Position numbers and translations under genes: made by a program. A stretch of DNA of 26,277 nt, taken from positions 1 through 26,277 of the IMG/VR virus record IMGVR_UViG_3300031840_000464, one strand, 5' to 3'. Positions 17,547-25,425 of this stretch are shown here, piece after piece. The stretch is from a virus. The stretch's first letter is position 1; the number at the start of each line of letters is the position of its first letter. The notes under the pieces were generated by a model. That model saw only the letters and a program-made list of their open reading frames with translations, was not told the origin of the DNA and searched no databases.

Positions 17547-18293
17547 TTATTTTTTTATTTTAATCATACGTTCTTGCCAGTACACCTTAGCGGCGAGCTT
17601 AGCACATTCTAAATAGTGGTCGAACTCTGGTTGAGTCCAGACCTTATGATAATGGTTGGCAGTGTTAGTACAGATGCATACTGATCTGATTTCGGGGTAG
17701 TAATCTAACTTCAACTTCTTAGCGAGCATTACGCTCTCTATTGCTAGTTGTTTACAGTCCTTCCCATAAAATTTTCCTTTGCCATCACAGCTTCGGCACT
17801 TGTAGTCCGCCATAAAAACCTTACCGTCCTTGACCCCAATGAAGTCAATACTTCCGGCGATCTTGAATCGGCGATCTGATACAACGTACTCGCAGTCAAC
17901 GACTTCCACATTGTTCTCATTCACCCAGTCAATGAAAGGTTTCGCCCAATCATCGTAAGCAGTTGCTTCTCCCTCTCCGTCCAGTAACCATTCCTCTATG
18001 CGTTTGTGGATTGCAGTCCCGAACTCAGATGATGGTATCAGTTCTCCAGTAAAAGGATGCTCCCGAAATCCGTACACCCATTCCTTTAGAATGGAGTAAT
18101 GTACATCTTGGTGTTCCCTTGCTAGTTCTACTAGCTTGCGTGGAGTATAAATACTATCCAAGAAATCGTCTTTAACGATTCCGAGTACAGTAGTAACGGA
18201 AGGATATGACTTGCCCTTTTTGCGAGCTTGAGCTGGTGTAGTTACATCAGCTAAGAACACTGGTTTGTTCGATGAAGAGTAGAAGTGAGCCAT
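17547..18293 (-). CDS. RecB/Cas4-like PD-(D/E)XK exonuclease
   Basis: A 248-residue nuclease. Motifs in order: GTAIHKRIEEWL at 92-103 (His96), AGSIDFIGVKDGKVF at 146-160 (Asp150), ADYKCR at 162-167 (Asp163, Lys165) and a helix with KDCKQLAIES at 178-187 (Gln182). This is the catalytic set of RecB-family exonucleases as found in lambda-exo-like, Cas4 and PDDEXK_1 proteins. No Cas4-type Fe-S Cys cluster is evident. Together with the ERF protein it forms an exonuclease/annealase pair: it would make 3' single strands for ERF to anneal. Its start overlaps the upstream microprotein stop by one base. Confidence 0.85.
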   Translation of the reverse strand: MAHFYSSSNKPVFLADVTTPAQARKKGKSYPSVTTVLGIVKDDFLDSIYTPRKLVELAREHQDVHYSILKEWVYGFREHPFTGELIPSSEFGTAIHKRIEEWLLDGEGEATAYDDWAKPFIDWVNENNVEVVDCEYVVSDRRFKIAGSIDFIGVKDGKVFMADYKCRSCDGKGKFYGKDCKQLAIESVMLAKKLKLDYYPEIRSVCICTNTANHYHKVWTQPEFDHYLECAKLAAKVYWQERMIKIKK

Positions 18294-19832: not shown

Positions 19833-20207
19833 TTATCTTTCGGTATTAAAGTATGTTCGCTCTGCTTCGACATCTGCATCGTAGTCACTGCTATCATCGT
19901 ACTCATCATAAAGTAAGCTCTTGATATTGGACTCGCCAATGTCTCCGAAGTCTTGTTTAAAATGCTTACATCTGTGTTCCAGTTTCGGCAAGATCATTCT
20001 GACATCTGTTGTCATTTGTTCTAGTAAAGACTCAGCTTGAGTACATCTAATCATTACGCACTCTAGGATTAACTGAATCTTGGTTTTCTTTTCTTCGTCT
20101 CTTTCAAGGTAATCCTCGAAAGCTTCGTGGAAGTTGTGGTAGTAATGCCTCTGAGATAAACAGAGGTTGACCCACTTTCTGAATGTTTTGATTTCTTCTT
20201 TTGTCAT
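19833..20207 (-). CDS. Helical protein of unknown function (124 aa), first gene behind a leftward promoter
   Basis: A 124-residue protein, helical and charged (FRKWVNLCLSQRHYYHNFHE, then AFEDYLERDEEKKTKIQLIL) with several Cys and a very acidic C-terminal part (EYDDSSDYDADVEAE). The ATG lies about 12 bases after a candidate -10, so the transcript would have a very short leader. It heads the leftward group that ends at the terminator near 12300. No family was recognised. Confidence 0.7.
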   Translation of the reverse strand: MTKEEIKTFRKWVNLCLSQRHYYHNFHEAFEDYLERDEEKKTKIQLILECVMIRCTQAESLLEQMTTDVRMILPKLEHRCKHFKQDFGDIGESNIKSLLYDEYDDSSDYDADVEAERTYFNTER

Positions 20208-20259: not shown

Positions 20260-20288
20260 TTGACATATAATTTATACTTTGGTATAAT
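20260..20288 (+). promoter_or_regulatory. Perfect consensus rightward sigma70 promoter
   Basis: TTGACA at 20260-20265 and TATAAT at 20283-20288 are separated by exactly 17 bases, the ideal housekeeping promoter. All genes around it are on the other strand, and the downstream DNA holds no coding frame of note, so its product is probably an RNA. Transcription would begin near 20295. Confidence 0.85.
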
Positions 20289-20294
20289 TGAAAG

Positions 20295-20423
20295 TGTAAA
20301 GTCCTCTCGAAGAGAAAGTGCAATCCAGCAAAGCCGAAGGTGCCTTGAAATGTCGGCGTGCGAGTTGTGGCGAAGTAGCTGGACTTGTCTCGATGGATTG
20401 CTCCTCGAATGCCTTCTCTTTTA
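20295..20423 (+). ncRNA. Putative structured RNA gene
   Basis: This stretch begins just after the consensus promoter. Its ends pair: AAGAGAA (20310-20316) with TTCTCTT (20414-20420), and inside that GCAATCCA (20320-20327) with TGGATTGC (20394-20401), eight perfect pairs. A further hairpin is GCCGA (20333-20337) with TCGGC (20353-20357). A competing helix, TCCAGC (20324-20329) with GCTGGA (20378-20383), would exclude part of the second stem, so two folds are possible. The closing stem is followed by TTTT (20419-20422), a possible end. No known RNA family was recognised. The 327-base interval 20208-20534 otherwise holds no gene; a minus-strand frame over it has no start signal and no protein character. 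Confidence 0.6.
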
Positions 20424-20534
20424 AGGATAGGTGTATCTACTGATCTAGATGTGATCATATCCCAAGTGATATAAAACATAGGAGTAGATAAAAGGCGAAG
20501 CTATACAACAAGAAGTATTTGATGAATGTAATCA

Positions 20535-20744
20535 TTATATATCAATAGTATCTTCGTTGTATCTTGTGATCTCTCCGTCCTCGTGGTAGTGAATGACAAT
20601 AGGTTTCACTCTTGTCCTACGCTCGTACTCATTGGCGAGTTCTTCCATCATTCGGCGATGGTCTAACTCGTTGTACATCTCTGTCATAATCTCGTGGTAC
20701 TCTCGCTCTGAGACACCAGCTTTCTGTGCTTGTTCTAGACTCAT
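20535..20744 (-). CDS. Small helical protein (69 aa), unknown
   Basis: A 69-residue protein: a helical N-terminal part (AQKAGVSEREYHEIMTEMYN, then RRMMEELANEYERRTRV) and a short C-terminal strand pair (VIHYHEDGEITRYN). It starts three bases after the stop of the upstream gene (TAAACTATG). The RNA gene at 20295-20423 lies beyond its stop. No family was recognised. Confidence 0.7.
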   Translation of the reverse strand: MSLEQAQKAGVSEREYHEIMTEMYNELDHRRMMEELANEYERRTRVKPIVIHYHEDGEITRYNEDTIDI

Positions 20745-23630: not shown

Positions 23631-23885
23631 TTAAATTGCTTTCATTATTCGGTTTTGTTGCAACTTTGCGTTCATCCAATCGTTTGAAGGGATCGTTATT
23701 GTTACACCAAACTCGTCTTTCATTTTTCGCAAAGGTTTTTCAACCTTGATTTGTTTTACGACCTTGGCTTTTATTGCTTTGGCTTTTTGTAAGCGTTTTG
23801 TCTTTCGTACAAAGCTTGTATCTTGCCACGCAAAAGAACCTTTTGTTCGTTTTGTGGTTTGTACATTTGGTTTATACATAATCAT
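23631..23885 (-). CDS. Basic protein (84 aa), first gene after the control region
   Basis: An 84-residue, Lys-rich protein (KRTKGSFAWQDTSFVRKTKR, then LQKAKAIKAKVVKQIKVEKP) with a short, less charged end (FGVTITIPSNDWMNAKLQQN). A second in-frame ATG at 23879 (MYKP) is an alternative start. Being the first gene leftward from the control region, it is probably made very early; a DNA-binding role would fit the charge but is not shown. Confidence 0.65.
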   Translation of the reverse strand: MIMYKPNVQTTKRTKGSFAWQDTSFVRKTKRLQKAKAIKAKVVKQIKVEKPLRKMKDEFGVTITIPSNDWMNAKLQQNRIMKAI

Positions 23886-23930
23886 TTAATTTTGATTGAT
23901 TGAAGCCAATCTTTTACAATTAGCTTTAAA

Positions 23931-23972
23931 CAATCAAAACGAGCAAAGCATTTGCAATGCTCGTAATGATTG
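23931..23972. repeat. Perfect two-part hairpin
   Basis: CAATCA (23931-23936) pairs with TGATTG (23967-23972), and CGAGCA (23940-23945) with TGCTCG (23958-23963), separated by a symmetrical 3-by-3 internal loop. Inside, GCATT and AATGC can also pair. No long T-run follows on either strand, so a terminator is less likely than a cruciform, an attenuator in the leftward leader or a protein-binding site. Confidence 0.75.
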
Positions 23973-24077
23973 AAAAAAATTGAGTTATAAAGTGTCAGTT
24001 TATTTCTCTCTTTAGATGGTAGCTTTTAACTTCTATTGAAGCCACCTAAACGAGTTTGTAAGACTCGATCGCTTGTA

Positions 24078-24199
24078 GTCTTTTGAATGTGCATTCATTC
24101 AGTCATTGAGACAAGCTAGCCAATAACTCAAGCATATTAGAGTTGCTCTCGCAAATTAGCTTATTGCGTGATAAAGTTCCCACTCAACTTTCAAAAGAC
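24078..24199. repeat. Long-range inverted repeat closing a multi-hairpin domain
   Basis: GTCTTTTGAA (24078-24087) is perfectly complementary to TTCAAAAGAC (24190-24199). Between them lie AACTC/GAGTT (24125-24129 with 24140-24144) and CGCAA/TTGCG (24150-24154 with 24164-24168), both perfect. Just left of the domain are CGAGT/ACTCG (24051-24055 with 24063-24067) and TTTAG/CTAAA (24011-24015 with 24046-24050). The nested arrangement looks like a folded RNA or origin structure. No promoter was identified for it. Confidence 0.55.
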
Positions 24200-24695
24200 C
24201 CTCGACTTAAAATTGCTGTATCAGTTTAGTGACGGTTGGTACAATTTGCGATTAACAAAACAGAATCAAATTTTTATTAATTTAACAAGCAAAAAAATTC
24301 AAAAATAATAAAAAAAATTCAATAAATTGCATAAACCATTGAAAACAAACACTTTACGAAACTGAAAAAAATTCAGAAAAATGCTTAAAAAATAGCTCAT
24401 TTTGTCGCTTATAGTAAACATAAGAATAACTTATCAATAATTACTAATTAAAAAACCGTTAGAAAATAAGCTAATATAAACAAAAGTAATAAATAGAATA
24501 AGTGATATTAATTAACTAATAATAAGAATAAAAAATGCTAATCAATAAGAAAGAATAATAGAAAAGATAAGTAAAACTAATTCCAATAAGCTCTCCTAAT
24601 ATATTACATAAGAGAAGAAAAAAAACTAATATCACACATAAACAAAACTTATTGAATTAAAAACGCTAATATTTTAAATAAGTAACGCTAATTGA

Positions 24696-24724
24696 TTGAC
24701 AAATGAGAATGATTCTCAAATAAT
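24696..24724 (+). promoter_or_regulatory. Rightward sigma70-type promoter ahead of the terminase genes
   Basis: TTGACA (24696-24701) and AATAAT (24719-24724) are exactly 17 bases apart; the -10 differs from consensus at one base. Transcription would start near 24731 and give a leader of about 128 bases before the small terminase gene. The spacer is filled by a 15-bp palindrome resembling a Fur box. ATAAG/CTAAT repeats flank it on both sides. Confidence 0.75.
24704..24718. promoter_or_regulatory. Fur-box-like palindrome between -35 and -10
   Basis: TGAGAATGATTCTCA is a perfect inverted repeat about a central G. It matches the established 7-1-7 Fur consensus TGATAATnATTATCA at 12 of the 14 defined positions, with the two differences symmetrical. 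Its position would let a bound protein block RNA polymerase. A phage-encoded repressor using a similar half-site is an alternative. Confidence 0.6.
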
Positions 24725-24816
24725 GTACCATAAATAAAACTTATGTTTTGTATTAGTAACACTTATTTGAACGGATGTACCACAAAACGGGGGGAGGCAG
24801 TTAGCCACACGCCCAC

Positions 24817-24841
24817 ATACATATATATATATACATATATA
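24817..24841. repeat. AT dinucleotide tract
   Basis: A nearly pure run of alternating A and T, interrupted by two C, lies in the leader of the small terminase gene about 17 bases before its ATG. It would melt or extrude easily. It is also a spot where polymerase slippage or assembly error is likely. Confidence 0.85.
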
Positions 24842-24858
24842 GGGGTTTAAAAAAATAT

Positions 24859-25425
24859 ATGACTCAAGGGGCAGAAGAAGCAGAACTCAAGGCAAGTATC
24901 CAAGCGGCGATACGAGAAGTCGCTGACGACAAAGAGCTGAAGAAGATCAAGAGCTTATCTCGGCACAATCCTATGAAGGTAGCTGAGATACTGTACTTGT
25001 ACTCCATTGGCAAAAGCCAGACGCAGATCGTCAAGAAGTACAACGTCCAGCGATCTACGGTCATTCAAGTGCTGGTGGATTACGCCGACCATCTTGGGCA
25101 ACTAAGGGATCTAGCTGGCAAGATCAGTGCAAAGAACTATATGCAGCTGAGTTCATTGGAGGAGGATCTAGTCGAAAAGGTCCGGGACCGTATGGAGAAC
25201 GACCCAGAGATGGAGGTCACATTCCGTGATCTCAAGGAGTTGAGCATAGCTAAGGCTAACGCATTTCGGGAGACTATGACCACTAGGGGCGAAGCCACTA
25301 GCATTACGGAGGAGAGGAAGGTCATTACCCAAGAGGACTACGAAGATACCCTAGCAGCGGCAAGGAAGCGTTTGGAGCAAATGAAGCAAGTTGACAGCCC
25401 AGAGATAATAGAAACTGATGATTGA
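24859..25425 (+). CDS. Terminase small subunit
   Basis: A 188-residue protein with the order typical of small terminases: a helical N-terminus, a helix-turn-helix near residues 40-73 (VAEILYLYSIGKSQTQIVKK, then YNVQRSTVIQVLVDY), a helical oligomerisation part (LSSLEEDLVEKVRDRMENDP) and a charged C-terminus. Small terminases recognise the packaging site on phage DNA and feed it to the motor. The position directly before terL, with one short gene between, supports the call. The ATG is preceded by an A-rich stretch and no Shine-Dalgarno sequence. Codons here are more G/C-ending than in the tail genes. Confidence 0.85.
   Translation: MTQGAEEAELKASIQAAIREVADDKELKKIKSLSRHNPMKVAEILYLYSIGKSQTQIVKKYNVQRSTVIQVLVDYADHLGQLRDLAGKISAKNYMQLSSLEEDLVEKVRDRMENDPEMEVTFRDLKELSIAKANAFRETMTTRGEATSITEERKVITQEDYEDTLAAARKRLEQMKQVDSPEIIETDD

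Follow-up and report, generated by a model that had tools for sequence, protein, structure and literature searches.

A probable noncoding transcription unit opposing the early operon of a marine phage

The window, i.e., the whole stretch of 26,277 nucleotides that was analysed (IMG/VR record IMGVR_UViG_3300031840_000464), belongs to a marine phage of unclassified type and very probably contains a real noncoding transcription unit, according to the comparison of its sequence with those of relatives. The original prediction, made from the letters of the window, was that of a small RNA gene. It is supported by a promoter that is kept in relatives and unique in each genome, by signs of purifying selection on the RNA body in one class of relatives (class T), and by compensatory changes in an inner helix, P2. 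Beyond the model phages, known noncoding RNAs of phages are few, and this unit, which is absent from Rfam, is supported by comparison and not by folding energy.

The promoter and its conservation

The only TTGACA-16/18-TATAAT of the window lies on the plus strand at 20260-20288, whereas dinucleotide shuffles give an expectation of 0.01. It sits in a 330-bp gap flanked by two minus-strand genes (19833-20207 and 20535-20744), inside the minus-strand early operon and oriented against its genes, which confirms the claim of a perfect consensus promoter opposing its surroundings. The GC skew is positive at the RNA locus alone within the minus operon; the promoter and this local turn favour a plus-strand transcript. 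A high abundance of the RNA is only implied, by the strength of the promoter. The features of the locus are as follows.

20260-20288, plus strand: sigma70-type promoter with a TG extension before the -10 box (TTGACA 20260-20265, 17-nt spacer, TATAAT 20283-20288), from sequence
20295-20419, plus strand: noncoding RNA body without a long plus-strand frame; the start at about 20295 is deduced from the -10 box
20310-20316, plus strand: 5' arm of the outer stem P1, AAGAGAA, pairing with 20414-20420, from sequence
20320-20327, plus strand: 5' arm of the inner stem P2, GCAATCCA, pairing with 20394-20401, from covariation
20324-20329 and 20378-20383, plus strand: competing helix TCCAGC/GCTGGA, from sequence
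20394-20401, plus strand: 3' arm of P2, TGGATTGC, from covariation
20414-20420, plus strand: 3' arm of P1, TTCTCTT, from sequence
20418-20439, plus strand: 3' module TTTTAAGGATAGGTGTATCTA, common to T7-like phages, from a profile match, single copy in the window
20419-20422, plus strand: T run, from sequence
20435-20450, no strand assigned (RNA of either strand, or DNA): hairpin H3, ATCTA-CTGATC-TAGAT, from covariation of the arms
20455-20535, minus strand: ORF for a 26-aa hydrophobic peptide, MITFIKYFLLYSFAFYLLLCFISLGI, convergent with the RNA, with a TAATG overlap with the preceding gene
20535-20744, minus strand: early gene for 69 aa, situated upstream of the tiny peptide ORF

Elsewhere in the window, an AT-rich region of about 970 nt (23885-24859, about 30% GC), which has no ORF of 60 aa or more, separates divergent early and late gene blocks and is likely the late/early control region; it includes a TTGACA-17-AATAAT sequence at 24696 on the plus strand.

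Relatives were collected by scanning viral contigs with the exonuclease (17547-18293), which gave 31 loci, and by an alignment-based scan, which gave 80. The longest relatives found are about 36 kb, and, of the named phages, C75C1 came out as the closest relative (44% identity for DnaB and 46% for the exonuclease). The closer relatives retain both hexamers with a spacing of 16-18 nt, while the spacer and the surroundings vary. A search of whole records for TTGAC-N16/19-TATAAT gave one copy, always at the RNA locus, in seven of 12 related records; the five records that lack it are the more distant ones. The flanking 124-aa gene shows hardly any conservation, so the promoter is not retained for the adjoining gene. 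In four relatives (L015, L020, L023 and L024), the promoter persists despite a different body and module, and transcription from this point therefore seems to be itself under selection.

This persistence could also be explained if the strong promoter acted purely as a roadblock to convergent transcription, the sequence behind it being incidental and the RNA having no function, and the folds, which are no better than shuffled, are in line with that idea. The conservation of the class T body, the covariation of P2 and the shared 3' module all argue against it, and we consider it very unlikely.

In L015 (1500-1672) and L020 (2680-2858) (minus strand), the same promoter is followed by another downstream RNA sequence, of which about 65 nt are common to both (GGCTACGRCAGGTTTGTAATAGTGTGCAGTTAA...ACACTATGAG) and include a hairpin; this may be another RNA class at the locus. 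Most matches of a first scan with promoter plus motif were discarded as unrelated coding sequence, and a search with the 5' end of the unit gave no further members.

The RNA body and its stems

In 18 variants, the promoter is followed by a noncoding stretch of 104-158 nt, which leads to TTTAAGG[A/C]T. In the window, a long open frame behind the promoter is absent from all three plus-strand frames, in agreement with the earlier statement that nothing protein-like is encoded there. A translated leader or short gene is not seen in the relatives either: the frame that follows DTG differs in length and sequence between close relatives.

The perfect nested stems that had been described, together with the competing TCCAGC/GCTGGA helix, are all present in the window sequence. 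The stability of the fold is not above chance (MFE -35.5, z -0.67, 47 of 200 shuffles being equally good), so that an RNA gene could not be argued from the stems alone. The z-scores of plus-strand folds come out near zero; in L007, L008 and L028, the strand opposite to the promoter folds much better (z from about -2 to -4.5). The proposal that the fold can switch did not hold, since the competing helix does not appear in the sequences of relatives and the predicted fold is unremarkable. A P1-like stem occurs in L005 and, more loosely, in other relatives, and none is evident in L074.

Compensatory base changes, which the original prediction expected in homologues, are found in the inner helix P2. 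In the window's class (the window, L004/L005/L043, L074 and L007/L008/L028), three of the eight pairs are changed on both sides and 93.8% of the cells are paired, compared to 80.5% in shuffles, in an alignment of only four clades in which the two arms were placed by hand. None of 500 shuffles is paired to the same extent, and slid registers come nowhere near it.

The body classes barely align with each other (26-50% identity between clades). Class T comprises L010, L013, L016, L018, L022, L093, L094, L207 and L303, and L026 forms a separate class. The class T body is 77-93% identical between relatives, compared to 55-73% at the 4-fold sites of the neighbouring nuclease gene, in most pairs, which points to purifying selection on the noncoding sequence. 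This conservation is spread over about 150 nt, and the presence of indels indicates that the body has no reading frame. As the class T body hardly varies, RNAalifold detects little covariation in it.

Rfam searches with the window, class T and the T7-like unit, at gathering and at permissive thresholds, gave no match, nor did the 6S and pRNA covariance models, and no tRNA or tmRNA was found. The suggestion of a mimic RNA gains no direct support. Likenesses noticed by eye to a CsrA site, to the L1 stalk of 23S rRNA and to a CRISPR repeat were rejected, as the matching bases vary within the family.

The 3' module and the T7-like phages

The unit had been described as ending in TTTT. The T run is indeed there, but no terminator-like site is recognised at it and the end at 20423 has to be abandoned: the conserved unit runs past TTTT into TTTAAGGATAGGTGTRTYTA and then into a covarying hairpin (window 20418-20450), and thus reaches about 20450. 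Among 85 distinct members, the arms of this hairpin, H3, are GTTTA/TAAAC in 30, GTCTA/TAGAC in 20, ATCTA/TAGAT in seven and ATTTA/TAAAT in three. There are at least ten distinct hairpins, almost without G.U pairs.

A scan with a degenerate version of the module found more than 100 viral stretches among the matches listed. Those listed from outside the window's group belong mostly to one T7-like marine phage group (two clusters with at least 75 distinct sequences). The TerL of this group shares 65% identity with that of MedDCM-OCT-S45-C18 and 61% with that of Roseobacter phage CRP-171. A profile built from 14 T7-like modules only matched the window at 20418-20440 (E 7.8e-5 in 255 kb) and also most class W/T loci (best 1.5e-7), always at the RNA locus, in a test which is partly circular because the T7-like set had been found with a pattern from the window's group. 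The facts that the T7-like matches occupy one orthologous position, and that there is one copy per genome, are independent of this circularity.

The exact module has a single, chance-like match in 84,980 bacterial genomes (in Flavobacterium hydatis). It was not found in the named phages searched, and is absent from the stretches examined of C75C1, CRP-171, CRP-125, CRP-361 and MedDCM-OCT-S45-C18; blastn searches of named phages with the unit and the module gave nothing, or unrelated short matches only. L069, which has a UvsY-like gene recognised by eye, was considered as a third lineage and dropped as a chance match, as the profile misses it. At 1070-1235, upstream of its UvsY-like gene, it has a consensus promoter and TTTAAGGATAGGT, and this region resembles the unit by eye. 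The module is carried in one copy per genome by two unrelated marine phage lineages and is essentially absent from bacterial genomes. The sharing of the 20-base module and the hairpin by the two lineages suggests either a common host target or the exchange of a functional cassette.

In the T7-like genome G012, the module has the 3' end of TerL (36290) on one side and the first early gene (35722) on the other, and is antisense to the two genes. A T7-like cluster of 16 has a conserved TTTACA-15-TATAAT located 150-180 nt upstream of the module, and in the larger cluster a TATAAT with unusual spacing is a candidate promoter. The T7-like group also has a second hairpin; its loop is conserved (CTCATAC..CCGTTCTTTCG), and its matching stems are of many kinds. 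In L300 and L373, a 21-nt core upstream of the 3' module (GTCGATACTTCGTTCTTCTCC) is inverted compared to the other members of the T7-like cluster, and the inverted core is flanked by different short inverted repeats. This would be a small DNA inversion or a template switch, and seems to point to DNA events.

Because the plus-strand z-scores are near zero and G.U pairs are few, action at the level of DNA, or perfect arms produced by template switching, must be weighed. The locus could be a DNA element (an origin, a genome end or a recombination site) whose hairpins act in DNA and which is opened or activated by the promoter. Such an element would account for the nearly exclusive use of Watson–Crick pairs where H3 and the loop hairpin of the T7-like phages vary, for the inverted core, for the single copy per genome and for the unremarkable plus-strand folds, and the position between TerL and the first early genes is where genome ends are expected in T7-like phages. 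We nevertheless regard it as quite unlikely: two phages with unrelated replication systems would have to share the site, the position in the window's group is in the middle of an operon, the conservation of the class T body extends over about 150 nt, and template switching that keeps the arms perfect would give the same picture.

The common module may instead belong to a trans-acting RNA, which docks by it on a host factor, either the 30S subunit or the Nus/antitermination machinery, and serves as an early decoy or recruiter. That two unrelated phage lineages carry one and the same 20-nt module speaks for a host partner common to them, and the conservation of the body is independent of the neighbouring genes. 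In the 30S version, the U-tract is followed by UAAGG as a Shine-Dalgarno sequence and, four bases later, by GUG, UUG or AUG. In the 85 distinct members, the TG is preceded by G, T or A but not once by C, even though the search left this position free. However, the reading frame that the would-be start opens is not conserved (three codons in some members, more than 50 in close relatives), and the phage's own genes mostly lack Shine-Dalgarno sequences. In the Nus version, GGTGTRT would be boxC-like and UUUUAA loosely boxA-like, in comparison with the lambda boxes. The match to boxA is poor and was made by eye only, and several known motifs were compared in this way, so that a single short match is not strong. 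Docking of either sort is somewhat unlikely. A related and rather unlikely view is that these RNAs form a family found only in viruses, which unrelated marine phages have exchanged or have each kept independently. Its common 3' module would bind a single host machine (the ribosome or the transcription-elongation complex) right after infection, and its variable body would carry a function specific to the phage.

Convergent early genes and comparison with known systems

In each of the 18 variants examined, the RNA is directed towards the 3' ends of minus-strand genes, and in most of them a small ORF is 1-61 nt away. A hydrophobic ORF of 26-43 aa is found at this spot in 14 of the 18, with several unrelated sequences; these unrelated micropeptides beside the module look as if a cassette had been exchanged. 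The peptide ORF is absent from L022, L207, L028 and L026, in which the RNA and the module are kept.

A convergent 3' overlap is one known layout of type I toxin-antitoxin systems, and the tiny ORF that ends so close to the module could encode a hydrophobic toxin for which the RNA is the antitoxin. The four variants that keep the RNA and the module without the peptide speak against such a pair, as do the association of the same body with different peptides and the presence of TerL at this place in the T7-like group, which makes it highly improbable.

The convergent layout, the convergent early genes and the persistence of the promoter when the downstream sequence changes fit a brake of the type of lambda pO/OOP, the best supported of the mechanisms considered, which we put forward tentatively, as possible rather than probable. 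Transcription itself, the end point of the RNA and every functional step are what we infer here. The RNA polymerase of the host would start at the consensus sigma70 promoter inside the early operon and face it, producing a short RNA that is not translated and whose 3' part runs towards the 3' end of the early genes next to it. The operon would then be held back by this convergent transcription, and by pairing between RNA and early mRNA where the two overlap; the repressed targets would be the gene for the tiny membrane peptide and those that lie behind it, toward the nuclease/ERF/DnaB replication block into which the operon leads. The window layout is compatible with an OOP-style overlap of the 3' end of the early gene, which requires transcription past the T run. 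The body is conserved in L022, L207, L028 and L026, where the convergent gene differs or is missing, and this argues against antisense action in cis alone. Since exchange of the convergent gene leaves the body conserved within a class, an additional role in trans is probable. A test for pairing between the RNA and the translation starts of genes in the window gave nothing convincing (best z -2.2 of 43 tested), and the nearby genes have no similarity to the replication initiator of C75C1.

Several known systems resemble the unit in part. Like phi29 pRNA, it would be an early phage RNA whose position is kept while its sequence diverges, but it is common to phages with unrelated packaging genes and is far from the TerS-like gene of the window. 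Like 6S RNA, it combines long stems with a strong promoter, and the stems of the window's class flank an asymmetric bulge; class T, in contrast, has no 6S-like layout. The leftward promoter A0 of T7 is of host type, near the left end of the genome, and directed away from the early genes. The T7-like group described here appears to have a similar outward host-type promoter, but the phage of the window is not T7-like, and we know of no conserved RNA module associated with A0. With the nut and rrn antitermination sites, the unit shares short linear boxes beside a hairpin, just downstream of a strong promoter; it differs by a poor boxA, another order of elements and the lack of a same-strand gene downstream for more than 4 kb. 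The search string for rrn boxC in PMC10250234 is UCUGUGUGGG.

In lambda, the early gene cII lies next to OOP, which is antisense to it (PMC12197685), and the convergent pO promoter lowers transcription from pR and affects replication (PMC3985674). Both there and in the window, a host-type promoter lies within and against an early operon, with a short RNA, putative in the window, that is directed at the 3' end of the early gene beside it. We do not claim that the unit belongs to OOP, because no sequence relation was found between them, no intrinsic terminator is recognised at the T run of the window, and transcription is only inferred. Unlike OOP, the unit has a body that changes class between relatives and a 3' module common to several phage lineages. 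Small antisense phage RNAs are a known kind, to which this locus, absent from Rfam, would add class-switching bodies and a 3' module carried by two phage lineages.
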